The translations under genes and the position numbers were made by a program. The notes beneath the pieces were generated by a model, which saw only the letters and a list, made by a program, of their open reading frames with translations, did no database searches and was not told where the DNA came from. Of a stretch of DNA of 64,000 nt, positions 4,299 through 23,991 are shown piece by piece; the stretch's first letter is position 1, and the number at the start of each line of letters is the position of its first letter. Source of the DNA: Isoetes taiwanensis (Eukaryota; Streptophyta; Lycopodiopsida; Isoetales; Isoetaceae). Where the stretch lies: NCBI GenBank assembly GCA_021234155.1, contig JAJEKV010000057.1, forward strand, positions 7,164,623-7,228,622. The letters are read 5' to 3'.

Positions 4299-4498
4299 AG
4301 CTTTTGTTCATGGAAAGAGAAGTTCCTCTTGCTCTACCAACAAACAGAAGTTTTCCAGAAGTTTTTTACTGTCAAATTTTGCCATCAAAAATAAATTTCG
4401 AAATGCTAATTAATTTACATTCCAACCAAAAGCAAAGTCTATGCACCACCAAAGAAGTAACTTCATCACCAAAAGCTCAACTGACAATCCTAAATGAG
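4299..4498. repeat. Interrupted arm of a middle-repetitive family (continues at 17388)
   Basis: The segment ending ...CTCAACTGACAATCCTAAATGAG is contiguous, in a paralogous inverted copy around 49790-49865, with the sequence that here resumes at 17388. It is therefore the left part of the insertion site of the LTR element 4499-17382. Part of it (4320-4446) also matches 45904-46024 directly. Confidence 0.85.
4494..4498. repeat. Target site duplication, left (ATGAG)
   Basis: Five bases directly before the TGTGACGG start of the 5' LTR, identical to 17383-17387 after the 3' LTR. Present once in the empty-site paralogue near 49820. Confidence 0.95.
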
Positions 4499-6036
4499 TG
4501 TGACGGTCCAGAGGAATATACGCCATAAATACGTATATTCCTGGACCATTATCCACGTGGCCTTAACCTATTGGGCACCCGCCACCCAGGACGCACCCGA
4601 TTGGTGCCACGTGGCATCCTAGGTGGACCTAACTTATATAGGCTGGAACCCTAACCCTAGGCCTCTTTCCAGCCCTAGCACCCAGAGACTCATCTACTGC
4701 GTTGAAACCCCGTTTGAACATCGCGTCTAACGTGGCATAGGACCGGTGCGGCGGCCCGTAGGGTAGACTTCGTTCTTGGAGCAAGAGCAGCATCCGTGAG
4801 TCGAAGACCATGGAGGCACCGGATCGGAGGGAGAGCATCGGGAGGCGGTATGTAGAGTAGTAGTTGTGATAGCTCATCCGGAATTAGCATTCCGGATGTG
4901 CTAGTATCTTGTATCTAGAGTAGAGCCATCCTAGAACCCGTATTCAACATCTTGAACCCTAATCAATGAACCCTAACCATTAGTTAGATTTGTATGATTA
5001 GGTTAAGATGTTCTTCTCATGATCATACTTAGGATATGATGATTATGTGATGTTGGTTGATCATGTTTGCTCCTCTTGTATTGGGAAGGGGGGTAGAGAC
5101 CTAGGGCCATATGTAGTATGCTCCTAGAGTAGATCCCTTAGTTCCTATTAGTTGCGGCCTGTGCATAGGAGCCCACCAGGCTATCGAGGCTATGACGAGA
5201 CTCAGCACCACATAACGGGGCTAGATGGAATGTGGAGGGAGGATCCCTGCCGAGTGGGGGCTTCGGGGGATCCCATAGTGGGCTAGGCTTATGGTCGGTC
5301 ACTTCGTGTGGGCCGAGCATGGGTCTGACACCTCCTGGGGCAATGGTGACGCCCTGCCTCTCGAGAGCTGCAAGTGTTGGCTTGGCTCTCATTTTGGGGG
5401 GTTAAATCGGGTACGAATCGTGTGTCGCCCGCGATTCTCTAGCCGCCACGGAACCTCTAGACCACTGGGAAGGGGAGATGCAACCCTTCTCCCTCATCGG
5501 ACCGAGGGAGATGCAACACTGGAGTAGTCAGATGGGTGATGCCATGGGATTTGCGTGTCCGGAAGGCTAGAGTCATGCGAGCCTGATTTAGCCCATCCGC
5601 AAAGTATGCACAGGAGGTGCGGATGGAGTGGTCAACCCTAGCCATTGTTCTATGCCGACCCCGCCATTGCCATGACTCGGTGCGCTCTATCTTGAGGCCC
5701 TAGCGGTCGGGTCATCCTCCTTATGAGTCCGGGCACGGGTAGGAGCTCTCATGTTTTACGGTTTATGCTTATCATCTTTGTAGTGATATATGTGAGATGC
5801 ACTACCCTTCGAGGTAGCACTTATATGTTTGATGCTAGTTCTGACATGTTATCGCTTCCGCTGTTATAGGAGCCCATAGGGGAAGGGCGCGCAAGACACC
5901 TTCGTGTTCCCTCCCCGCACTAGGGATCACCTCAGAGTGCGGGGTAGACGAAGGGCCCGTGCGGTTGTTGAGCCGGACGGGGGATTTCCTGCCAAGTGTA
6001 CGGCTGGGCGCCGTATGTTTAGCAGGGAGCGTCACA
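4499..6036 (+). repeat. 5' LTR of the H3-bearing element
   Basis: 1538 bp, starting TGTGACGGTC and ending GTCACA. Relative to the 3' LTR it lacks 105 bp corresponding to 15784-15888. Near its start lies an 11-bp inverted repeat (AGGAATATACG and complement, 4512-4542). The small ORFs inside it, mostly antisense, have no recognisable product. Confidence 0.95.
4635..4640 (+). promoter_or_regulatory. Putative TATA box of the 5' LTR
   Basis: TATATA in the context AACTTATATAGGCTGG, conserved in the 3' LTR. Transcription would start some 30 bp downstream, near the CCCTAACCCTAGG stretch. Assigned by motif only. Confidence 0.45.
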
Positions 6037-6037
6037 A

Positions 6038-6050
6038 TGGTATCAGAGCA
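6038..6050 (+). other. Primer binding site, initiator Met-tRNA type
   Basis: TGGTATCAGAGCA one base after the 5' LTR. The first 12 bases are the usual plant PBS complementary to the 3' end of tRNA-iMet. Confidence 0.92.
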
Positions 6051-6615
6051 ATGTTCTTGGTTGACCAGGAACTAGCACTGACCATAACCATGAAAGTAGT
6101 CTAACAAGCCTATAGGAGGTGTGAAATAAACATTTCCACCATTGAACCGCGAAAATAGGGGAAAAAATTTTTTCTCCTAGGTAGTGGGTCAGGATTTAGG
6201 CTAAGTGTTAGACGAAGGAATGAGTGAGTCAAATTTATCTTCTAGTAAATTTGGAGTGGAAATTATGCATCAGCGTCAAGTTTCACCTAAAATGGGTCGA
6301 AGAATCATACCAATCGGAGACCCGAGTGAAAAATGGCGCAAATCCATAATTCACACTTCAAACCATTAGAAAATTCGAAAATTTAAGGTATAATACGAAT
6401 TAATACAGGATTAATACATACTTTAATAATTAAATAATTACTAAATATGGTGTAATTAATAAGGGAGGGCTAATAAATAGGGGTAATTATGGTGAGAGAA
6501 TATTCCTAGGGACCCTCCTTTTTAAATATCTGACACCTCATTCTCTCTCTCCAACTTTTCACCTCCACCTCTCTCTTACTCAGCCTTACTTCACCCATTT
6601 CCTGAACCGTAAGAT
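6051..6615 (+). other. Retrotransposon leader with splice-like signals
   Basis: AT-rich untranslated leader turning into a CT-rich stretch (6541-6600). A pyrimidine tract ending in CAG at 6581-6583 looks like a 3' splice site. GTAAGAT at 6609-6615 looks like a 5' splice site and abuts the ATG of the H3-like ORF. No packaging signal can be identified by eye. Confidence 0.45.
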
Positions 6616-7734
6616 ATGGCTCGCACTAAGCAAACAGCCAGGAAGTACAAAGAGCGCCCCACCCTCTCCATGGCGCAAGCGGCAGCGGGTCGACATATCA
6701 ACAAGGTCCCCGAGCACCTTCGGCCAAAGCCAGGAGATGAAGAGTCCCCCGCCAGCAGCAGCAGCAGCAGCGACGACTCCTTTCACGATGCTGAGGAGAC
6801 GTCCAACAGCAGCAGCTCTTCGTCGGCGGGCACGCAGAGAACCGACGAGTCCCGCCACTTCGGGCCCTCGGACACTGAAGTGGAAGAACAGGAGGAGGAG
6901 CAGGCGGAAGTGCAGCAGCAGCAGCACCAAACCCAGGAGGCGGGCCCTTCAGCACCCAAGAAGAAGGGCAAGGAGAAAGTTGCAGAGTGGCCGGAAGAGA
7001 AGGCTGCTAGGAAGAAGCGGGAGCGGGAGCGGGAGCGGAGGCAGCAGGAAAGGAGGACAAAGAGGAGGAACGATGGGCCTCGCCGGACCATCGTTATAGA
7101 GGAGCCTCAACAGGAAGAGGAGGCGCAGGAGGGCGGAGATGGTGAAGAGGAGGAGGAGGAGCAGCAGGGCCCCGACGCGAGACCACCTTACCCTAAGTGG
7201 CCAGAACCACCAAAGGTGGTCAAAAAGCAAAAGGTGGGAGAGCGAGAATTCATGCTCCATCAGGATCGTGAATTCTTGCGGAAAATGAAGGCGTATCAGG
7301 AGTACCTCCGTCGCTGGACGAGGTACAATGACTGGTACTGCCGTCAGGAGGTGCAGCGGGTTGTGGAGGGCGGCAGGCCGAAGAAGAACCAACCCAAGCC
7401 ACCCCCACCTAGACCGGAAAAACCCAAAAGGGTTCACCACGGGCCGAACAGCACGTACGCCCGGGTGTTTAGGGAGATAAGGCACTTCCAGATGTGCACG
7501 AATCTCCTGATAAGGAAGGCGCCCTTCGAGCGTCTCCTTAGGGAAGTAATGCAGGAGTTCCGGACAGATTATAGGGTCATCCCTCTAATGACCCGGGCCC
7601 TGCAAGAGGCCGCCGAAGCAGAGCTGGTGCAGCTCTTCGAGGAAGGGAATCTCTGTGCCATCCATGCTAAGAGAGTTACCCTTATGCCAAAGGATATTCA
7701 CTTAGCACGGAGGATTCGCAGGGAGAGGCCCTAA
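6616..7734 (+). CDS. Histone H3-like protein with long charged linker, encoded inside the LTR element
   Basis: Uninterrupted, intronless 372-residue ORF. Residues 1-10 ([10 protein letters not shown]) match canonical H3, keeping the K4 and K9 positions, but serine 10 is tyrosine. Residues 11-277 are a linker: serine/acidic tract (44-100), basic KR/ER-rich block (115-157), second acidic block (162-187), aromatic Tyr/Trp-rich helix-like stretch (205-250), proline-rich segment (254-270). Residues 278-372 are an H3 histone fold aligning without gaps to H3 49-135 (offset 237). H3-H3' and DNA-contact positions R49, R63, R69, R83, C110, H113, R116, T118 and D123 are kept; K56 is M, Q68 is E, F84 is V. 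EIRHFQ, TNLLI, APF, ALQEAAE and RVTLM recall plant CENH3, but loop 1 has H3 length. ATG context is good (G at -3 and +4). Probably a nuclear, H4-pairing histone variant; role unknown. Confidence 0.93.
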
Positions 7735-7968
7735 GCCTCAAATTTTGTAAATTTTGTAGAAAAGTTAAAATTTTCATGTAACTGTATTTTCTTATTAATA
7801 TAAAAGTTATTTCCCTCTGTAATTAGAAAATGTTGGATGCTTGAAATCTAGGAAATAGAACCCAATTGTAGTAGAATTCTTCATAGCACGCTTAAGAATA
7901 CCTTAGAAATCATGACTACAACGAAATTTTGGCAAAAAAATCATCAAAAAAAGCAAAAATCGAGGCAA

Positions 7969-8034
7969 CCGGGTGAGACCGCGCTAATGGCCTCTGCGTC
8001 CGCGACGCGGGCGCGTTTCACGCGGATTCACCCG
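7969..8034 (+). repeat. GC-rich hairpin element, copy 1
   Basis: CCGGGTGAGACCGCG on the left and CGCGGATTCACCCG on the right form an imperfect stem. The interior contains the palindrome CCGCGACGCGG. The same arrangement recurs at 8171-8230. Confidence 0.8.
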
Positions 8035-8170
8035 ACTGCCCCAAAAGCATGCTTTTAGATGTCTGTTTTGCTCAAAATAAGTTGCTAGTTAGGTTAGAAT
8101 CGGCCCAATTAGCCATGTTAGCATCTTTAAACTCCCAAAAATGACCAAAAATGGCTCCAAAATAGGCTAA

Positions 8171-8230
8171 CCGGGTGAGACCGCGGCAAACGCGTCCGCG
8201 ACGCGGAGGCCATCCGCGCGGATTCACCCG
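8171..8230 (+). repeat. GC-rich hairpin element, copy 2
   Basis: Same left arm, CCGCGACGCGG core and right arm as 7969-8034. The sequence between arms and core differs, so the stems and the core are what is shared. Confidence 0.8.
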
Positions 8231-8530
8231 TGTCAGCCCATTTTTGACCTAAATTAGCCAAATTTGATCCAACAAATTGCCATGTAGTGTTTCTTGCTTT
8301 GTTTTGCTTAAGTTTGCACTTCATGGTAGCTCAATTGGACACCCAGAGCCATAGAACCAAGGCCTTCCTAGGTAGGTACCTTTTTGCACGAACCCCGAGG
8401 TCAACCATAGTCTATAAAAAGAGGTCTCATTTGCCATTTTTTCTTCTACAGAACTGCTCCCAGCCCCTTAGGCGATTTTCTGATCCTTCACTGATCTTTG
8501 CAAGCCATTTTTTGCACCCTTTACTACTCA

Positions 8531-10300
8531 ATGGCGCCCAGCAACTTTGAAAGATGGTACAATGCTGCAAACCATATCCATCAGCTTCCTGTAGATCAAG
8601 CCTTCTCTGTGTTCGACCACTTGTTTGATCTTCATGCAACTCTGACTAGAACACCATACTACACAGACATTATGTGCCAATATGACCAGCAGGTCCTGCC
8701 TTGGGAAGTTAGACTGCCCCCTAGGGGAGGGAATTGGGTTTCTCTTGAGACACTCACCCAAGCCTTAGGTCGAGAGTTGGTAGGATCCAAAGGCAAGAAG
8801 CAGCTATGGGATAGGACCAGGACCATGCCCGATTACATGACCTGCAGACACAATAGGCATAGGTACCTTTTGTCTCAGACAACCCTTGCCCTTTTCATGC
8901 ACTATAAGTCAATCAACAAAGTAGGGGAACCTTCTGTTCAGCCCTTAGACTTAGCACCACTTGATACCCGTAGGGCCCAGGATCAAATCCTGAATATAGA
9001 GTCCTCTGCCTATGAATACCATGGCACGATGTCAGGGGCACCAGTTCTGCAGATCCATGAAGACTACGAGTAGTTAAAGGAGCAAAACCCAGAATGGGAG
9101 AGCAGGGAGGCAACAAGGATGCAGAGATACATGTCGAGACACGATGACGACATCAGAAGAGCTACCGAGCCACCGGTCGGCATCACAGCTCTGTCGCCGA
9201 TAGTCATCGACGGGGAGGAGTACATTTTTGCAAACGACATCCTCAACTTGTCGTATTGCCAGGAACAGGGTCTTCAAATTGACGAACTCTTAGGCATGAT
9301 AGCACATGGGAAGAGCGCAGACTTCATCGACTATTCATACCAGGAGATTCCAAGGGAGCTGGCGGAGAGACACTCTTATGCTGGGGAGACAATGTCGGAT
9401 ATAGCCGCCTATCAGTAGATAAGGGAGATCTATCGACAGCAAGAACCTATCATTTCAAAGGAGGAGTTCCAGCAGATACAGAGCACACTCTACAAACCAG
9501 GGAGGGGCCCAAGCTCCAGCCGAACAGTTCGAGCCAGGAGCATGAGGGAAGGGTCTAGCAGCATCAACTTAGACAACGCAACCAGCATGTGGAGAGATCA
9601 CGAAGATCTTATGGCAGTAGATGCCTACGGCGAAGCAGCTCAAAGGAAGGGCACTGGATCGCGAGGCACAGGGAAGGGCACGGCACTTCGCTACTATCTT
9701 CCAGCCCTTAGCCAAGGGCAAATGATAGTCTTCCACAAGGAGTTCAGCCCAAGGGGGGAAGAATCCGTGGCACTTCTCATAGCACTCTCGGGCTTCGGGC
9801 AGCACTCGAAGATATCCCGGGGGATTCACCTTTGATCAGCGTATAACCCATGAGAGTTCAACGGAGGGGTGTTTTTTGGACCATTTGCGTACGTATACTT
9901 AGGGGTGTTTTTAGGCACTAATTTGGAGCAATATCTATACACAGAGGGATCAAGTTGCCTTTTAAAATTGCGTATACAAGGGGGGTTTTTTGCTACCCTA
10001 TGAACGCAGATGCCATACCCCCCTTATGTATAAGTGCATCCCCCGGGGAAGATATACGCCCATGCAGACCACATCATCCTTTTCAACAGGGCCGTCGCGC
10101 TCCATTGCCTCGACTTTGCGAGGGGGCACCTTAGGGACGCAACACTTTCAGTGGTAGCAGCAACGGCACCAGAACTCCCGGAACCAGAAATGACCCGAGC
10201 ACTTGAAGGAAGATCGACAAGGAACATCTTGCGCAACCTCGGCAAAGGCCTGCGATTAAGGGATGTCAAGAACTTCTTCAAGCTTTCAGGAGGCCATTGA
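8531..10300 (+). pseudogene. Unknown ORF2 of the H3-bearing element, two amber codons and a MITE insertion
   Basis: One reading frame runs from the ATG at 8531 to the TGA at 10298-10300. It is broken only by TAG codons at 9071 and 9416 and by a 232-bp MITE plus 8-bp target duplication (240 bp together, so frame is preserved on both sides). Without the insertion it would span about 509 codons. There are no frameshifts, unlike in gag-pol downstream. The product is hydrophilic with no membrane segment, zinc knuckle or enzyme motif that I recognise. The first third is rich in aromatic residues and histidine; the middle contains acidic DDD and EE clusters. It is not the gag, which lies downstream. 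Both stops are TAG, as expected from C-to-T change at CAG. Confidence 0.7.
9816..10047 (+). mobile_element. 232-bp MITE inserted in ORF2 (8-bp TSD)
   Basis: Terminal inverted repeats CCCGGGGGAT(T/G)CAC are flanked by GAAGATAT on both sides (9808-9815 and 10048-10055). The 8-bp duplication fits hAT-type transposition. Related copies lie at 17872-18079 (inverted), about 49134-49345 (direct) and, diverged, about 28965-29130. No coding capacity. Confidence 0.9.
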
Positions 10301-10623
10301 ATAGTTGTAAAATTTTCTTAAGTTTTGTGCTAAATGTTTTCTTGTACCCCATTGTGCTAAGACATATCTACTCTAGCATGTAATCTTTATGTATTAATGA
10401 CTATTAACTGTTTTATAAATGCAAGGCCTTGTATGGTTTCCTTTATAACTAAAGATAATTCAATTACAAGTAAGATTGATCAACATCTAACCCAAATAAC
10501 ATGTATTGATGATCAATCCTTGCAGCAAGGAACTCAAGTGCAAGATCCCAAGACCAGCACCGACAACGCAATTGGGTACCAAGGAATTTGTTTGGCAGAG
10601 AACAAGAAGACTTTGAGCAGGAT
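10301..10623 (+). other. Spacer between ORF2 and gag
   Basis: T-rich stretch after the ORF2 stop, then sequence with acceptor-like TCCTTGCAG (about 10517-10525) and TTTGGCAG before the gag start. No ORF of note. Confidence 0.5.
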
Positions 10624-11875
10624 ATGTCACCAGAGGCAATCAACGCAAGGCTGATGCAGATGAGGAACCAGATGCAACACTTGATCAACTGGGCGACACC
10701 TCTGATGAATGAGCAGGAAGATGGTCCTCTACCTCCACCTCCACCTTGTCTTAGGGTGGTGGCCTAAGTCCCTCGCCGGGAAGGGGAGGGCACTAAGGGG
10801 AACGTCGGGGATAGGAGAAGGAAGAGGAGAACCAGGAGCCCATCGTCATCTAGCTCCAGCTCATCGAGGCGGTTCTTCCGGTGAGGACAGCTCTAGCTCG
10901 GCCAATCGGTCAGATACACCTAGAGCAAGGAAAAAAGCAAGCAAGAAAGGCGGATGACTATCGAGAAAAAGGTGGATAGTGCTATGAGCAGCATTATGGA
11001 AGACAAGGAAGGCGGGCGGTTCTCGGGAAAGATAGATCGGGCATGGAGGTGAAGCATGGCTTGATGAAATGGAAGAATTTGGCAACTCCTACGGTATGAA
11101 AGACAAGGACATAGGGAAAGTTGCTGACTAACCTTATTGGATCGGCAAGGATCCGGTGGAAGGGATATGCTAAGTCTAACAAGTGAAGAGGAACAATTGC
11201 AGATTTAAGACCTTGACAAGGCTTTCCGTAAGCACTATGTGCCAAGGTCTCATACTAGTATGTGATCCCAGTTTTACAAGGTTGAATGTGGTAGCTTGTC
11301 AAGAGCTAAGTATAAAGAAGAATTCATGAGTCTCGTGCTCCATGTTCCCCGAGTCTCGAAGGCCAGAAGTGGATACCTACATTGAGGGATTGAACAACAA
11401 TATCAAGAGGCTTGTTAGAGCAATCAACCCAAGGTGGATTCAAGAGAGGCCTAAGATAAAGCTATAAGTTTGGAGGAGGCACCAAAGCAACTCCAGCAGA
11501 GAAGCAAATCAACCTTCAGGGGGTAAGAGTTGAGGCGTGATCGGGGGCAATATCGGGGTAAGCAATCAGCAGCTACACCATCAGGAGGCCGGCAACAAGG
11601 TAAGAGTCGAACAAAGCTTTTTGGGGACCGTAAGCCACGAGGAATGCATCAGGAGGCAATGCTCTTAAGCCGTCTCCTAGACCGATGCCGAAGGAGAAGA
11701 GACAGAATGCATTGAGAAAAAAAACTATGCTTCAGTGCTTCGGCCCGTGGCAATCAACGCATGATTGCCCATTCGTCATGCAGGCAGACCTTGGCCGGTA
11801 ACTTGTGGATTGGGATTCCCCAAACGAAGCCGGGCGAGGCGGCGACCACCTCGCCAGGAGGCCGGGACTTCATAG
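10624..11875 (+). pseudogene. gag pseudogene of the H3-bearing element
   Basis: Begins MSPEAINARLMQMRNQ at 10624. Frame-shifting fragments typical of plant gypsy gag follow: EAWLDEMEEFGNSYG (about 11052), a capsid-like FYKVECGSLSRAKYKEEF (about 11275) and NNNIKRLVRAINPRW (about 11395). A degenerate cysteine/histidine knuckle follows near 11730 (CF..W...HDCP). Many frameshifts and stops, so no capsid could be made from this copy. Confidence 0.75.
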
Positions 11876-12397
11876 ATGGTGAGTGCCACATATGTGCAAA
11901 CATTGAGTCGTGATATTGAGAATCACGACCGATCATTATCAGCGGCTGATGGGATCATAGATAGTAATCCATATGTAGTCCTCATAGATACAGGTAGCTC
12001 TCACAATTTTGCATCTCCTAGGTTGGCTGCCCTAATGAAGAACAAGGTATTGAAGTCTAAGCCAAGGCCAGTGGCTATGGCAAATGGCGCCATTCGGCAC
12101 ACTAAGGGGAGGAGGATCATCTTTGACATAGACCTTAGTGGGGCTAAGTGGCCGATGGGGGCGGAAGTCATGGATATCGGAAGATATGATCTTATAGTGG
12201 GGATGGAATTCTTGAAGCCAGCTAAAGCCATGATTGATTGCGACCGGAACGAAGTCACCATGACGGCACCAGACGGCAGCAAATTGATAGTGAAAGGTAA
12301 GAAGGTAGATTCTCTCATACAGTGTATCTCTTTGAAGCAGTTAAGGAAGAGTATAGAAAGGAATAAGGTGGTACATCTTGAGGATGGAATCAGTTGA
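11876..12397 (+). pseudogene. Retropepsin-like aspartic protease domain
   Basis: ORF of 173 codons with the catalytic triad in VVLIDTGSSHNF (Asp at 11987) and the downstream flap and hydrophobic-Gly pattern YDLIVGMEF. This domain would cleave Gag-Pol. It is locally intact but separated from RT by a frameshift at about 12395 and from gag upstream, so it is classed as part of a broken pol. Confidence 0.85.
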
Positions 12398-13244
12398 GCC
12401 AGGCAAGCAGAATGGAAGTGACCCAAAGGGGGAATCAATTGCCCAGGCAGATAGCAAGGCTTATTTCAGAGTTCAAGGATGTATTTCCAGATGAAATCCG
12501 CAGCTGCCACCTTATAGGGGTGTGGAATGTGAGATCACATTGGCTCCAGATGCGAAGCCTACCAGTAAGGCGCCATATAGAATGAGCACCCCAGAATTGA
12601 TTGAGCTCAAGAAGTAGCTTCAGGAATTGCTCGAGCTTGGGTTTATAAGAGCAAGTGTGTCTCCTTTCGGAGCACCTATACTCTTTGTGAAGAAGAAAGA
12701 TGGGAGCTTAAGAATGTGCATAGACTATCGCCAGCTCAATAAGCAGACGATAAAGAACAAATATGCATTGCCAAGGGCAGATGACCTAATGCACCAGTTA
12801 CAAGGAGCAAAGGTATTCTCTAAAATTGATTTGAGGTCAGGATACCACCAGATAAGAATAAAAGAAGAGGATATCTATAAGACCGCTTTTAGAACGCGGT
12901 ATGGTCACTTTGAGTTTACAGTAATGCCCTTTGGATTGTCGAACGCTCCAGAAACATTTATGCGCCTCATGAACGACATCTTCAGAGACTTCTTGGATGA
13001 GTTTGTTATTGTCTTCTTCGACGACATTCTAATCTACAGCAAGTCCATTGAGGAACATTGTCAGCATCTCAGGAAAGTGTTGGAAAAGTTGAGACGTCAT
13101 CGGTTGTATGGGAAGCTCTCCAAATGCCACTTTGCAACAGGCCGAGTGGAATATTTGGGCCATGTAGTAACATCCGAGGGAATCTCCACAGATCCATCTA
13201 AGATTGAGGCAATAGTTGATTGGCCAGCTCCAAGGAATGTGTAA
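12394..13244 (+). pseudogene. Reverse transcriptase domain
   Basis: An upstream linker (FKDVFPDEI, about 12470) is out of frame with the main block 12627-13244. The main block carries the RT landmarks [31 protein letters not shown] (first catalytic Asp at 12828), [12 protein letters not shown] and FFDDILIYS (catalytic DD at about 13020). It ends at a premature stop after the thumb-start motif [10 protein letters not shown]. Catalytic residues are intact but the polyprotein frame is not. Typical Ty3/gypsy RT, closely similar to the fragment at 45130-45480. Confidence 0.93.
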
Positions 13245-13820
13245 GTAAAGAAGCTTTCTTTCGGGTTGGCATGGATATTACGTAAAGTTCGTGGAAGGAC
13301 TTTTGCTAAGTGGGCATCCCTCCGGCTCGGACCTCACCAAGACCAAGAAGATTAAGGATTGGACTAGCCATTGGTTAGAGAAAGTCCAAGCTTCCTTCGA
13401 AGCTTAAGGAGGCCTTTAACAACGGCACCATTGCTTGTTCTCCGGATCCGAGTAAAGATAAGTTGGTAGCAGCGGATGCAGCAAGATAGCAACAGAGCAG
13501 ATCTTGATGCAAGAAGGAAGGGTAGTTGCCTACGACTCGGCTAAGAAGAAGATGAACGACGCCGAAAGCAACGCTACCCAACCCATGATCGGGGAGCTGC
13601 TAGCCATTGTCGTATGCTAAGGATATGGAGGCATTATTTCTTTCGGGAGGAAGTTTCAATTAGATAACCGATCACCGAGTCTTCAGTATCTTTTCACCCA
13701 GCCACTCCTCAACTTAAGGCAAAGGAGGTGGATGGAATTCCTTGAGGAGTATGATTTTGATATTATATATAAGCCCGGCAAGCTTAATGTTGTAGCAGAT
13801 GCCCTCTCCAGGAGACCATT
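13245..13820 (+). pseudogene. RNase H domain, decayed
   Basis: Pieces in shifting frames match gypsy RNase H and its connection: DLTKTKKIKDW (about 13338), ACSPDPSKDKLV (about 13433), ITDHRSLQYLFTQP (about 13666) and the end motif KPGKLNVVADALSRRP (13770-13818). Numerous frameshifts. Confidence 0.8.
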
Positions 13821-14240
13821 TCAGACAAGGACGCATTGTAATGCGATTTCCACTCTTTCGAGTGAGTTTGGCAAGAAGATTGAGGAGTCCTTGCCAACGG
13901 ATGTGGACTTCAAGGAGGTGTGGGAAAGCCTCTCCAAGGAAGCCAGAACAGATAAAGAGCGGGAAGCCTTCAAGCATTATAAGAAGGAAGGCAACCTGTT
14001 GTATCATAAGCATAAGTTGTGTGTGCCCGAATCATCAGGAGTAAGGAAGTTAATTCTCCATGACACACATAACAGCCCAATAGCAGGGCATGCCGGCTTC
14101 ATGAAGACCTATTTCAAGATTCGAAGTAGTTACTTCTGGCCAGGAATGAAGAGGCAGATAGCTGCATATATTTTGGGGATTGTCAGTTATGCCAGCAGAC
14201 CAAAGCGGAGCAACTTCGGATTCCAGGTGCTTTAGAGCCA
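13821..14240 (+). pseudogene. Integrase N-terminal zinc-binding region
   Basis: The block HDTHNSPIAGHAGFMKT and YFWPGMK (about 14060-14150) is the His-His half of the HHCC integrase domain. The Cys-Cys half is lost: the expected C-x-x-C after AAYI reads GIVSYAS. A frameshift separates it from the catalytic core. Confidence 0.8.
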
Positions 14241-15027
14241 TTGGGGGTGCCAAATGCGAAGTGGGAGGTCATAAGCATGGATTTCATCACAGATCTCCCT
14301 AGAACTCTTCGAGGCAAGGATGCATTGATGGTTGTCGTAGATAAGTTATCTAAGATGGCACATTTTGTGCCTTGCAAGACTACTGACACCGCATTAGACA
14401 CTGCCAAGTTATTTGTAAGGGAGATTTTTAGACTCCATGGCATGCCTCGGGAGATAATATCTGATAGAGATTCTAAGTTTATGAGTGCCTTTTGGCAGGA
14501 TCTCTTTAGCTCTCCATGAGCATGGCATATCATCCCCAAACAGATGGCCAGACGGAGAGGACGAATCGGATCATTGAAGACATGCTTCGAAGTTATGTGT
14601 GGAACAAGCAGTCCAAGTGGGATGAGTACATCCACTTGGTGGAATTCGCCTACAATAGTGCCAAGCAAGAGTCATCGCAGATGTCTCCTTTCATGGTAAA
14701 TTACGGGTACCAGTGCCTAACCCCGGACACCTGGCACAATCCTGTGTCGAAGGTGGAAGTATCCCAGCAGATGTTAGGGGATATGCAGCAGTTAGTGGAG
14801 GAAGTAAGGGTTACTTATTGGCAGCAAGAAGTCGGCAGAAGAGTGTAGCCGACAAGCACAGGACCGTAAGAGAGTTCAAGGTAAGCGATAGCGTTTGGTT
14901 GAAGATCAAGGTGAAGCAAGCCAAGCTTCGGATTGGGAGTTGTAAGAAGCTTGCCCCTAGGTGGGCGGGATACGCCTTTAAGGCATTCTCTAGGCCACAC
15001 GCACCAAGAGGTGCGCATGACCATTAG
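14241..15027 (+). pseudogene. Integrase catalytic core and C-terminal region
   Basis: First Asp in MDFITDLP (about 14280), second Asp in IISDRDSKF (about 14463) and Glu in TDGQTERTN (about 14555) make the DDE triad with family-like spacing. A break at 14516 costs a few residues, and frames change again near 14848. The last part VSDSVWLKIK...KLAPRWAGY is the usual C-terminal DNA-binding region. No chromodomain is readable downstream. Confidence 0.88.
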
Positions 15028-15723
15028 GGTCATGTGAGTGAGGAATGAGGCATGGTGGGCGATGATGGGACATCGATCGGATGATCTCTATGCCACGATG
15101 CGGGGGACGCACACCTGGCCGTAGGAGGGTCATGGTGAAGGTTAAAGTGATCATGCGTGATGATGGGATCGTGAGACGTTCCCTAGCTTCAAACCCTTGG
15201 GGCATGATGCACTAGGGGTACTCGGCACCGGGTAACCGAGTACAAGGTAGCACTCGATCATGGGCAATGATGGGAGCATCTTAAATGATCCTTAAGCTCA
15301 AATCCAAAAGGGCCATGATCTTGGGCAAGGTAGTAGGATAACCTTGAGCCAGTAGTTCGGCTCAAGGAGGTAAGGGGGGTGGTCCCCTAAAACCACAAAT
15401 TATTAACTAAACTAACGTAATGTGCTCCTTTTGCAGGCAAGTAGAAGGTGGACTTCAACGAGGAGCGCATTACGAGAAGACAGGGAGAGCCATAATTTAG
15501 ATTATGAACCCTAATAACCCTTATAATAATATTTTGAATTGTCATAAGAAATAACGTTGTCAAGGCTATATAATTTTGTATAAGTACAAATATAGCCTAA
15601 ATTTTGACTTTAACTAATAAAACTTGATTGTTGAAGTAAACTAAAGGCTATGACATGTTGTTTCTTTTGCAGGCATAAGATAGGTTCGTCACTTTAGCGC
15701 AATGCTGAGGACAGCATTGTCCT
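15028..15723 (+). other. 3' untranslated region of the H3-bearing element
   Basis: Non-coding. Contains several short ATGATGGGA-type repeats (15060-15270) and two acceptor-like TTTTGCAG sites (about 15430 and 15665). Confidence 0.6.
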
Positions 15724-15736
15724 AAGGGGGGGAGAA
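15724..15736 (+). other. Polypurine tract
   Basis: AAGGGGGGGAGAA directly before the TGTGACGG start of the 3' LTR; the plus-strand primer site of reverse transcription. Confidence 0.93.
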
Positions 15737-17382
15737 TGTGACGGTCTAGAGGAATATACGCCATAAATACGTATATTCCTGGATCCGTCACTATACAAGT
15801 CTATCTTCATAGCCTTGTATACCATAGATTGTGGCACTAGGGGGCATGGCCAAGTTATTCACATAACTTAGCCAACCATAGGTTAAGACCATTATCCACG
15901 TGGCCTTAACCTATTGGGCACCCGCCACCCAGGACGCACCTGATTGGTGCCACGTGGCATCCTAATTGGACCTAACTTATATAGGCTGGAACCCTAACCC
16001 TAGGCCTCTTTCCAGCCCTAGCACCCAGAGACTCATCTACTCGTTCGAAACCCTGTTTCGAACATCGTTTGCTGTGGCATAGACTGGTGCAGCAGCCCCC
16101 GTAGGGTAGACTCGTTCTTGGAGCAAGAGCAGCATCACGTGAGTCGAAAACCATGGAGGCACACGGATCTAGAGGGAGAGCATCAGGGGCAGGTATGTAG
16201 AGTAGTAGTTGTGATAGCTCATCTGGAATTAGCATTCCAGATGTGCTAGTATCTTGTATCTAGAGTAGAGCCATCCTAGAACCCGTATTCAACATCTTGA
16301 ACCCTAGTCAATGAACCCTAACCATTAGTTAGATTTGTATGATTAGGTTAAGATGTTCTTCTCATGATCATACTTAGGATATGATGATTATGTGATGTTG
16401 GTTGATCATGTTTGCTCCTCTTGTATTGGGAAGGGGGGTAGAGACCTAGGGCCATATGTAGTATGCTCCTAGAGTAGATCCCTTAGTTCCTATTAGTTGC
16501 GGCCTGTGCATAGGAGCCCACCAGGCTATCGAGGCTATGACGAGACTCAGCACCACATAATGGGGCTAGAGGGAATGTGGAGGGAGGATCCCCGCCGAAA
16601 GTGGGGGCCGGGGGGATCCCATAGTGGGCTAGGGCTTATGGTCGGTCACTGCGGTGGGCCGAGCATGGGTCCGACACCTCCCGGGCAATGGTGACGCCGC
16701 CTCTCGAGAGCTGCAAGTGTTGGCTTGGCTCGCTTTGGGGGGTTAAGTCGGGCACGAATCGCGGTGTCGCCACGATTCTCTAGCCGCCCACGGAATCTCT
16801 AGACCTGGGGAAGGGAGATGCAACCCTTCCCCGCCTCATCCGGACCGGGGAGATGCAACACCGAGTAGTCCCGGATGGGTGATGCCATGGGATTATGCGT
16901 GTCAGGAAGGCTAGAGTCATGCCGAGCCTCGATTTAGCCCATCCGCAAAGTATGCATGTGGAGGGGCGGATGGAGTGGTCAACCCTAGCCATTGTTCTAT
17001 GCCAGCCCTCGCCATTGCCATGACTCGGTCTGCTCTATCTTGAGGCCTAGCCAGTCAGTCATCCTCCTTATGAGTCTGAGCCTAGGTAGGAGCTCTCATG
17101 TTTTACGGTTTATGCTTATCATCTTTGTAGTGATATATGTGAGATGCACTACCCTTCGAGGTAGCACTTATATGTTTGATGCTAGTTCTGACATGTTATC
17201 GCTTCCGCTGTTATAGGAGCCCATAGGGGAAGGGCGCGCAAGACACCTTCGTGTTCCCTCCCCGCACTAGGGATCACCTCAGAGTGCGGGGTAGACGAAG
17301 GGTCCGTGCGGTTGTTGAGCCGGACGGGGGATTTCCTGCCAAGTGTACGGCTGGCGCCGTATGTTTAGCAGGGAGCGTCACA
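15737..17382 (+). repeat. 3' LTR of the H3-bearing element
   Basis: 1646 bp, starting TGTGACGGTC and ending GTCACA; includes 105 bp missing from the 5' copy. Differences from the 5' LTR are concentrated in GC-rich tracts (5200-5600 versus 16550-16950) and include many 1-3 bp indels. Confidence 0.95.
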
Positions 17383-17387
17383 ATGAG
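17383..17387. repeat. Target site duplication, right (ATGAG)
   Basis: Identical to 4494-4498; continues into the host repeat. Confidence 0.95.
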
Positions 17388-20563: not shown

Positions 20564-21375
20564 GAGCATTCTATGCAGCCATACCTCTGTGGGGTTGCAG
20601 CACCTTGCTTGAGGAAGATGGAAGGCAATATCTTCTGGAAACGAAGAGGCCCCTCCCATAGTAGTTGTGGTTGTAGAGAAGTATGCGATATTTTTCTTCT
20701 TAGCCTGTACTTGGAACTAGGTGCACGAACTGTAGTACTCTTGCCTTAATGAAGAGGTTGAGGCTGCTATTGTAATGGAGTATGGGACTACTATATATCG
20801 GTGGAACTCTGGTTTGATCCTCCATAGTACTGAGTTTGTGGGAAGAAGCGGAGTACAGACTCTTTCGGTTTGAACTTCAGGGTGGTGGTACTATCCTCTG
20901 GAAAAGGATCATAGCTGCTGTAGTACTATGAGCAGCGGAAGAGGATGGATCAGCTGGACCTCCTACCTAGTATGGACTTCCATTGTCTATGACGAGACTA
21001 CTTCTCTAGGTAAATCATTCGGGCTGTTCTTCATGATCAAGAGTAGTAGCTTTGATGGGCTCCATAGTCATAAGCAGCTTTCCATAGTAGTTGAAGCATG
21101 TGGGAAGATGGTAACGCCTTACAGTACTGTGGAGGTTGAGAAGGGGCTGCCCATCTATCTGCAATTACGGTGAAGAGGTTGAGGGAGCTTGCCATAGTAC
21201 ACAGTTATGGCTCTACATCGACCTCTAGCATTGTGTTTGCTTTGCATCGTGTGCTAATTCTTCCGATCTAGTGACCAAGAGCATTGTATACTTCCTATCT
21301 GGCCTATTGTGGAGCCCACAAGAAGGTTGTGTACCTTGTTTTTATATTAATCAAAAAATTCTTACCCTCAAAAAA
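20564..21375 (+). mobile_element. Non-LTR-type (LINE or SINE-like) insertion in the copia RNase H
   Basis: Flanked by AAATTATTT on both sides (20555-20563 and 21376-21384). The plus-strand 3' end, TTTTTATATTAATCAAAA then CTTACCCTC and an A-run, resembles plant L1-type 3' tails. The body has repeated CCATAGTA(C/G) and GTAGTACT motifs and no recognisable ORF. The first ~20 bp repeat the adjacent target sequence, so the exact 5' edge is uncertain. Confidence 0.6.
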
Positions 21376-22309
21376 AAATTATTTCAGAGGCTGCCTGCGA
21401 TACCGCCACATATTCTGCTTCAGCGCTACATTCGGCTACACCCATATTTTTCGGGCACATCTTACTACAGATTTTCATACCTGGTGCAATGGGCGTTGTC
21501 GATATATTGCAATCCATCATCCTAAATCGAATCAAAGCTTTCTTAATATTTTGCTCTTGTGTCAAAAAAAGCTCCCCTTTTCTCCTATCTCTCATAACCT
21601 CCATACCCAACAATTTCTTAAGCTCACCCAGTTCGGACATTTGAAATCGTCCTTTCAAGGACGCTTGACATCTTTCCAGATACAATTTGTCATTACTAGC
21701 CATCACACAATCATCAACATAAAGTGCCATGATTAAGCACTTGTCTCCTTCTTCCCACATGTATAAATTGCCTTCCGTCTTCAATTTTCTAAATCCTATG
21801 GAAAGTAAAAAGTTATTCATGCATATGTACCATTGTCTAGATGCTTGTCTTAGGCCATAAACTGCTTTTCTCAATCTACAGACCATATTCTTTCCTTGCT
21901 CGTATCCTTCAAGCTGCTCCATATAAATTTCTTCTTCTAAGTCTCCATTCAAGAATGTTGTCTTCACATCCCTGTGCTCTATTTCCATATCATTTTGAAC
22001 TGCTAATGCTATCAAGGTTCTCAGACTAGTCACCTTGACTATAAATGAGAATGTATTTGTATAGTCTACTCCTGCTTCCTGAGTATACCCTTTTGCCACT
22101 AGACATGCTTTATACCTTTCTATCGAACCATCAGCATTCCTCTTTATTTTAAATAGCCATTTACTCCCTACCACATTCTTGCACTTAGGGCGTGGTACTA
22201 GCTCGTAGGTTCCTGTTTCTTTAAAGGACTTCAACTCGTTTTCCATAGCCTCCTTCCATTTTAGAGAATCTGGTCCCATCATGGCTTGCTCCACTGTCCT
22301 GGGCTCCAC
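21368..22309 (-). pseudogene. Copia reverse transcriptase and start of RNase H
   Basis: 313-codon minus-strand ORF with copia RT motifs: WKEAMENELKSF, GSKWLFKIKRNADGSIERYK, AVYGLRQASRQWY and the catalytic YVDD in IMALYVDDCVMAS. It ends in the RNase H piece CSAEAEYVAVSQAASEI, where the insertion interrupts it. Catalytic residues kept, but the Pol frame is broken on both sides. Confidence 0.93.
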
Positions 22310-22862
22310 TATGCAAGATATTATCTTTGGCTTTGGAACTCTTTTTGTTCTACCATAAAGTTCTAAGTTCGGCTTTAAGACGCTCTATCTCATTGCGACG
22401 TGCATATCTTCCCCTTGCTCCACTTTCAATATCTTCTTGCATTCTCTGATGTGCATCGTCTTGCCCTTCAATTGGCGCACTATCGGCTTCTGAAGTTTCA
22501 TGCATCTCCTCCCGCTCTATGCGGCGCACTATTGACTTCTATGGTCTCATGCACCTCATTCGGTTCATCATCTGTGTCAACATCTATTACTATGTCTGGT
22601 TTCTCTACTATCTTCTCATTTTCGTTCTCCGCATTGTCTCCAAGAAAGTCTGTCGGTATCCATTATTCTTCTTCTTGCTTTGTCAATGTCTTCCTGTCTT
22701 TATACAATAATTTCTCGTCAAATTCAACGTCTCTGCTATGTAAATTTTGTGTGTCACCGGGTCATACAACCTATAGCCATTCGTTTCCTCGTCATATCCT
22801 ACTAAGAAAGTGGGGATACTGTGATCACCCAGCTTTCCTCGCAGCTCCTCTGGCACCAACAT

Positions 22863-23480
22863 TTAGGCTAAGCATCCATAAACCCTCAATCGATGGACAG
22901 ACTGTCTTTTTCTAGACCATGTCTCTTCAGGAACGGCTCCCTTTAATGCAGATGTCGGCAACCTATTCTGCACATAGCAAGCAGTGGCTACTGCTTCTCC
23001 CCACAAAAAATTGGGTAATCCTGCATGCTTCAGCATGCATCTGGCCGCATCCATAATGTTGCGATTTTTACGCTCTGCCACACCGTTTTGTTGAGGTGTA
23101 TATCGACACGTGTACTACCTCTTGATTCCATGCATCTGATAGAATTTTATAAATTCTCCTGACCTATATTCACCTCCAAAGTCTGTCCTTAAAGGTTTTA
23201 CTCGTGAAAACGTCTCACGTTCCACCTCTGCAATATAAAGTCGGAAAGCATCGAACACCTGAACTTTTGAGCGGAGATAATAACATTTGGTGCGCCTGCT
23301 AAAATTATCTATAAAAGTAGCAAAATAGGATTTGCCCCCAAGACTCTGTACTTGCATGGGTCCACACACGTCAGAGTGCACCAATTCAAGCAACTCAGTC
23401 ACTCGTCGTCCTTTATTTTTAAAAGGAAGTCTAGTTTGCTTTCCTAGCATACAAGCCTCACACATGCTCTTCATCATCAA
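22863..23480 (-). pseudogene. Copia integrase
   Basis: Two blocks in different frames. 23480-23115 has CEACMLGKQTRLPF (zinc Cys pair), VHSDVCGPM (first Asp) and LRTDFGGEY (second Asp). 23081-22863 has MAERKNRNIMDAARCML (Glu) and VYGCLA. The frame is broken near 23110. The interval 22310-22862 holds the remaining, stop-rich integrase C-terminal linker. Confidence 0.9.
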
Positions 23481-23991
23481 ATGTCAACCCATCTAACAAT
23501 TTATGTTTTTTTGCAATTTTAATACTGTTGTAATTTACATGTGCCATCCTAAGGTGCCAAATATGCAGATCATTCATGATCAAAACTTTGTTAATAGTAT
23601 CTACGTTCAATTCAAACAAATTTCCATTTTTTTGAGCCTCAAAGGTTTTCATACCCTCTTTTATAAATTTGCATCCAGTCTTGTGAAATCTCAACTCAAA
23701 ACCATCATCCACTAAATTGGCAACAGAAATGAGATTGAATGACATACCCAGCGCATATAACACATTTGGCACATTAAGAATTGCTTTACCTTCCTTTACC
23801 AGTTCCAGAGTTCCACGTCCATGAACTTCTTGAAGAACTCCATTTCCCATCTGGACCACTCCAGGGTTTTCGTCATTTTTAACCTGCCGCAACATCTCAG
23901 GTGTGCTTACCACAGAAACCTCGGCTCCAGAATCTATGGTTAATACACCATTGTTCCTTCGACAATTAGCAATTGCTCCAATCGCCCCCAA
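23458..23991 (-). pseudogene. Copia protease and pre-integrase domain
   Basis: 177-codon ORF with the protease motif VLTIDSGAEVSVVS and the pre-integrase motif LWHLRMAH-type (IWHLRMAHVNYNSIKI). Belongs to the same Pol as the domains downstream on the minus strand. Confidence 0.9.

Follow-up and report, generated by a model that had tools for sequence, protein, structure and literature searches.

The window analysed here, a stretch of 64,000 nucleotides from Isoetes taiwanensis, holds a single Ty3/gypsy LTR retrotransposon at positions 4499-17382, bordered by the 5-bp duplication ATGAG (Table 1). The element shows the features that define this class, namely LTRs, a target site duplication, a primer binding site (PBS), a polypurine tract (PPT) and pol domains, and its parts follow each other in the order 5' LTR, PBS, ORF1, ORF2, gag, protease, reverse transcriptase (RT), RNase H remnant, integrase, PPT and 3' LTR. 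The PBS is presumably of the tRNA-Met type. A preliminary description of this DNA had reported exact LTRs, PPT and target duplication; the boundaries, the PPT and the ATGAG duplication stand, but the LTRs differ from one another in sequence. They are alike at 1402 of 1524 aligned bases (K2P 0.085), a divergence which indicates that the window insertion is old. ORF2, gag and pol are all disrupted in this copy, while ORF1 is open.

Table 1. Coordinates of the element's features in the window
Feature	Position	Strand	Basis or remark
Target site duplication ATGAG, left	4494..4498	.	read directly; repeats at 17383-17387
5' LTR	4499..6036	+	starts TGTGACGG, ends GCGTCACA
Primer binding site TGGTATCAGAGC	6038..6049	+	exact in 18/20 related loci; the remaining two have 1 and 3 mismatches
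ORF1, 372 aa: H3 tail, charged linker, H3 fold	6616..7734	+	at least 110 genome matches
Codons for tail A1-K9 (ARTKQTARK)	6619..6645	+	ORF1 translation
Histone fold, H3 residue 47 to C-terminus, no gaps versus H3	7465..7731	+	Pfam and PDB matches, alignment
ORF2, 509 aa where open (L011)	8531..10300	+	interrupted here by stops and an insert
gag region, broken	10513..11870	+	extent by eye; Retrotrans_gag in relative L010
Aspartic protease piece	11876..12397	+	Pfam RVP_2, E 2.2e-09
Reverse transcriptase piece	12618..13244	+	Pfam RVT_1, E 1.1e-39
RNase H remnant and integrase pieces, broken	13621..15027	+	Integrase_H2C2, E 1.4e-13; RNase H by eye
Polypurine tract AAGGGGGGGAGAA	15724..15736	+	read from sequence
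3' LTR	15737..17382	+	boundaries read from sequence
Target site duplication ATGAG, right	17383..17387	.	read from sequence

The 3' LTR carries about 105 extra bases at 15786-15886 that are missing from the 5' LTR. An insert at about 9816-10047 in ORF2, absent from the open copy L011, is flanked by the 8-bp duplication GAAGATAT and has the short inverted ends CCCGGGGGAT and ATCCCCCGGG; in these features it resembles a small non-autonomous DNA transposon. Elsewhere in the window, positions 513-798 consist of 42-bp tandem units, each with an inverted repeat around GTGTATTCCGGAATACAC, and open pieces on the minus strand at 21368-23991 look, by eye, like a Ty1/copia polyprotein.

ORF1 is the intact 372-codon H3-like frame that had been placed between the PBS and gag, and it was found as claimed; the earlier layout needs one correction, a second additional frame, ORF2, lying between ORF1 and gag. 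Its product begins as histone H3 does, residues 2-10 being exactly ARTKQTARK, and ends in a histone fold (residues 258-368; Pfam Histone PF00125, E 3e-28) for which H3 chains are matched in PDB at E about 1e-30. The gap-free fold claimed earlier holds over 89 columns against host H3, and the best match of this C-terminal part is H3; six folds of family A, the family of the window element, are 66-68% identical to host H3. Tail and fold are separated by a long linker of about 270 residues, with acidic and basic stretches, which is unlike anything in canonical H3, and two single-sequence structure predictions were of low confidence.

The contact residues named in the preliminary description also proved to be kept within the family: R49, R63, R69, R83, C110, H113, R116 and T118 occur in all 17 intact A copies, and D123 in 16 of them. 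We take these residues to be H3-H3' interface or DNA contacts. When two further families of element folds, B and C (described below), are added, R49, R69, R72, R83, C110, H113, K115, R116, T118 and K122 are invariant in 17 A, 9 B and 2 C folds, and D123 is present in all B and C folds. Other H3 positions have changed, K56 to M or Q and K79 to R or V in family A, and R63 to P and R129 to Y in family C.

Genomic copies of ORF1 and selection on its protein

A search of the genome (1,658,258,908 bases in 1,110 contigs) with ORF1 gave at least 110 matches, the weakest listed having an E value of 8.3e-170, and about 79 of them lack an internal stop by eye. Twenty loci were fetched with 10 kb of context, and in 20 of 20 an LTR end is followed by the PBS and then by ORF1, which lies 545-568 bases on, or 621 in L027, where the match begins at residue 23; the aligned LTR parts are 79-96% identical to the window LTR. 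Because these loci were picked by ORF1, they show the place of ORF1 and not its presence in every LTR copy. Among the best 40 LTR/PBS matches, a listed ORF1 follows at the usual distance (about 320 bases on) in 15 and lies 4-5 kb on in two, while for the remaining 23 there is none among the 110 ORF1 matches listed; four of these 23 have ORF2 at the usual distance (by eye). ORF2 itself has at least 150 genome matches, and at least 29 of the 110 listed ORF1 matches have an ORF2 match just 3' on the same strand (by eye). The 509-aa ORF2 product, encoded by the open frame at 6892-8418 of L011, gave no match in Pfam or PDB.

The dN/dS ratio (NG86) was computed across 17 of 24 A copies, leaving out L004, L007 and L008 (stops), L006 and L022 (changed 3' frame) and L027 and L028 (start lost or broken). 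It is 0.102 for the whole frame, 0.141 for residues 1-12, 0.113 for the linker (residues 41-190) and 0.071 for the fold, at a mean dS of 0.86. In tail codons 2-10 of these copies the sole amino-acid change is A7 to Y, in four copies, despite a pS of 0.51; in a set of 23 A copies that takes in broken ones as well, the exact ARTKQTARK is present in 17, Y7 in four and I6 in one, and the start is lost in one. For family B, nine copies were used (L032, with a frameshift, and L044-L048, short pieces, being left out), and the values are 0.112 for the whole frame, 0.086 for the N-terminal domain, 0.264 for the linker and 0.035 for the fold. The check across copies that had been proposed thus gives ratios far below 1 in both families, the fold being the slowest-evolving part in each. 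These results show that purifying selection holds both ends of the protein, tail and fold.

These data bear on whether ORF1 could be a functionless retrocopy of host H3, inserted once or passively carried along. Host H3 would indeed lend itself to this: with a canonical H3 query, 15 full-length host genes are recovered (96-98% identity), each matched as a single uninterrupted stretch, so that uptake of a processed copy would be easy. However, ORF1 has at least 110 related copies, lies at one and the same place in 20 of 20 loci, occurs in several families and has a dN/dS of about 0.1 at a mean dS of 0.86, all of which speaks against it; on copy number, shared position and dN/dS we reject the one-off retrocopy and leave passive carriage next to no probability. 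The observations support the view that the element carries the H3-like ORF as a resident gene, as the preliminary description had supposed.

Related families and the source of the fold

The same H3 query returned at least 135 further matches at 71-86% identity, many in long open frames of up to 567 aa, and all those fetched belong to one family, B. The B protein, of about 410 aa, has a new N-terminal domain (MA.TKS...) in place of any H3 tail, followed by a near-canonical fold (84-89% identity to host H3 in nine copies). The genome contains at least 150 matches to the N-terminal domain, whose residues 1-225 (L033, L035 and other copies) gave no PDB match and no Pfam match above cut-off, and in the whole protein Histone is the one Pfam model that exceeds it. 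Two B elements were inspected; their LTRs are 93.5 and 94.7% identical, they have the same PBS as family A, and they contain RT, RNase H, integrase and chromodomain pieces. The window RT is 80% identical to a B RT.

A third family, C, was met by sampling places in the genome that encode the tail, and combines the exact tail and a charged linker with a strongly diverged fold (about 50% identity to host H3, Pfam E 4.9e-21, at least 150 fold matches). A degenerate ten-residue coding pattern for the exact tail occurs at 1,051 places (516 + 535), as against the 15 full-length canonical host H3 genes, and at 2,321 places when up to two mismatches are allowed; the reversed control gave 0 in both cases. 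Eight of eight sampled exact-tail places, chosen by the tail, lead into a related ORF, which is broken in several cases. Starting from the fold, eight C matches (contigs C1-C906, the query's own excluded) divide by eye into four with the exact tail upstream and four without, and three of the latter contain stops; L062, also picked by its fold, has the exact tail. The canonical N-terminal tail is thus represented by an exact A1-K9 in A and C, but with the remainder missing, and by nothing in B. On contig C217, at 120970-132589 on the minus strand, three exact-tail places follow one another at intervals of about 5.8 kb and may form a tandem array.

The comparison of core histones took in H3 and H4: an H4 query gave 69 candidates and, among them, 43 matches, of which 16 are full-length at 99-100% identity and the others shorter or decayed. 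H4 is not amplified, which, as far as these two histones go, speaks against an amplification of histone genes in general. An assembly artefact or contamination is unlikely, the copies being diverged and spread over many contigs.

As for the origin of the fold, a tree of 28 element folds (17 A, 9 B, 2 C) with host, Arabidopsis and yeast H3 groups A, B and C together at 82/69 and A with C at 94/91, neither grouping being firm on its 89 columns. When two CENH3 sequences are added, in a tree from which six rows (four A, two others) are missing, A and C fall beside CENH3 at 88/85 and B falls apart. The folds would accord with one capture of H3 or with two. A and C share with CENH3 a diverged H3 fold and this position in one tree, and we take their EIRHFQ and LIP motifs to resemble those of plant CENH3. 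They differ from it in loop 1, which has no extra residues relative to H3 in any of the 28 element folds, and in identity, A being 66-68% identical to host H3 as against 50-59% to the two CENH3. CENH3 is therefore not established as the source, the tree support being weak and perhaps due to long-branch attraction. A CENH3 query of the genome singled out no host CENH3, and no relatives were confirmed in viral contigs.

The retention of the tail in families whose fold and linker have strongly diverged, as A and C have, is what might be expected of a soluble decoy, whose tail would titrate or recruit the writers and readers of K4 and K9 without needing to enter a nucleosome, the fold serving H4 or chaperone binding, or stability. 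We nevertheless regard such a decoy as unlikely, though deserving of some weight, given that the fold is the slowest part in A and B, that DNA-contact residues are kept and that B has no H3 tail at all.

The chromodomain integrase and possible functions of the protein

In relatives of the window element the integrase ends in a chromodomain, with Pfam Chromo at E 3.8e-11 in family A (L040) and 2.7e-09 in family B. This C-terminal chromodomain defines chromoviruses; it is unreadable in the broken window copy. Judged by their domains, A and B are chromoviruses, while C is known here from ORF1 alone. By eye, and compared with HP1, the chromodomain looks group II-like, the first and third aromatic residues of the cage being absent. 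In the Tcn1 clade, as described in PMC6317226, the majority of elements have no tRNA PBS and the chromodomain has its aromatic cage; membership in this clade was rejected, the elements here having a PBS and lacking the two aromatics.

The presence of this chromodomain in A and B raises the possibility of an integration guide, in which the ORF1 protein, lying on target chromatin or on the cDNA, would be bound by the element's own chromodomain integrase and would steer insertion. Chromodomains of other chromoviruses bind H3K9me, according to PMC3350952, which favours such a role. On the other hand, the domain looks group II-like, and the binding partners of that group are not known according to PMC3350952 and PMC6317226, so that it would be a guess to say that the integrase reads the ORF1 tail directly; B, moreover, has no K9 tail to be read. 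We hold steering of this kind to be rather improbable.

The place of ORF1 just 5' of ORF2 and gag, together with its many basic and acidic stretches, would suit an accessory of Gag, a basic histone-fold protein that would coat the element's RNA or its cDNA within particles or pre-integration complexes. Such a packaging aid would leave the near-invariant ARTKQT.RK tail and the retained H3-H3' residues unexplained, and Gag already carries a zinc-knuckle motif, although the zinc-knuckle models stay below cut-off; to us it appears decidedly improbable.

Taking into consideration that (i) the fold and its contacts are retained under selection, and (ii) the tail is kept in A and C and replaced in B, we give about an even chance to the following explanation. 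A Ty3/gypsy chromovirus lineage would have acquired an H3 gene from its host as the first of its ORFs and maintained it as a working protein. This protein would fold as H3, pair with host H4 and enter nucleosomes, whether on the DNA of the element itself or at its targets. The tail on display would thereby be changed, A and C showing a K4/K9 tail and B withholding it and showing another domain instead. The likeliest benefit would be an altered silencing state of the element, and the docking of tail readers, possibly including the chromodomain integrase, may be part of it.

Entry of the variant into nucleosomes would explain the retention of fold and contacts, whereas decoy and integration guide explain the tail better than the fold; that H4 is not amplified is expected if the protein uses host H4. 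Against nucleosome entry stand the absence of K56 and K79 in A, the linker of about 270 residues, the low confidence of both structure predictions and the exact tail in only four of eight C-fold matches. It is least sure for C, which has lost R63 and R129 and is about 50% identical to host H3.

A further-reaching proposal, which we make tentatively and hold to be possible but doubtful, is that the element runs a chromatin system of its own. The H3 variant with its K4/K9 tail and the chromodomain integrase would lay down and read the element's own nucleosomal mark, escaping silencing or steering insertion, and one ancient capture would have given rise to at least three architectures and probably more than 1,000 copies.

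Transposon silencing acts largely through marks on the H3 tail, and an H3 made by the element would act on exactly the substrate that this control uses. The families differ at this very point, with the first nine residues in A and C and none in B. They offer a natural experiment on which features of H3 benefit a transposon, on how far the fold can drift and on the uptake of H3 without H4.

Comparison with known systems

No retrotransposon encoding a core histone was found in the open full-text literature (PMC), subscription papers lying outside the scope of that search. A captured core histone in a chromovirus thus has no precedent in the literature searched, although the capture of host genes by Ty3/gypsy elements is already known. 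Histones are also encoded by viruses: bracoviruses carry H4, and Marseillevirus and Medusavirus have histones. The likeness lies in a mobile or viral genome with its own histone; the difference is that those are DNA viruses, whereas here an LTR retrotransposon carries H3.

From the published I. taiwanensis repeat library, as PMC8566536 states, repeats with BLASTx matches to plant proteins were purged; H3-bearing elements would have been dropped in this way, and ORF1 may be annotated as host histone genes. In the main text of the I. sinensis genome paper the word histone is absent.

With plant chromoviruses the elements share LTRs, PBS, PPT, gag, protease, RT and an integrase ending in SH3-like and Chromo domains; they differ in having two additional ORFs before gag, the first of which is H3. 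For SM-Tcn1, a chromovirus of lycophytes, PMC2864245 describes gag and pol only. The nearest precedent is found in orchids, where Ty3/gypsy elements carry an ORF for an AlkB-type m6A RNA demethylase, according to a review (PMC12786077). Both cases concern a plant Ty3/gypsy lineage with a captured host gene for epigenetic or epitranscriptomic control; the orchid gene encodes an enzyme acting on RNA, while the one described here encodes a structural protein of chromatin.
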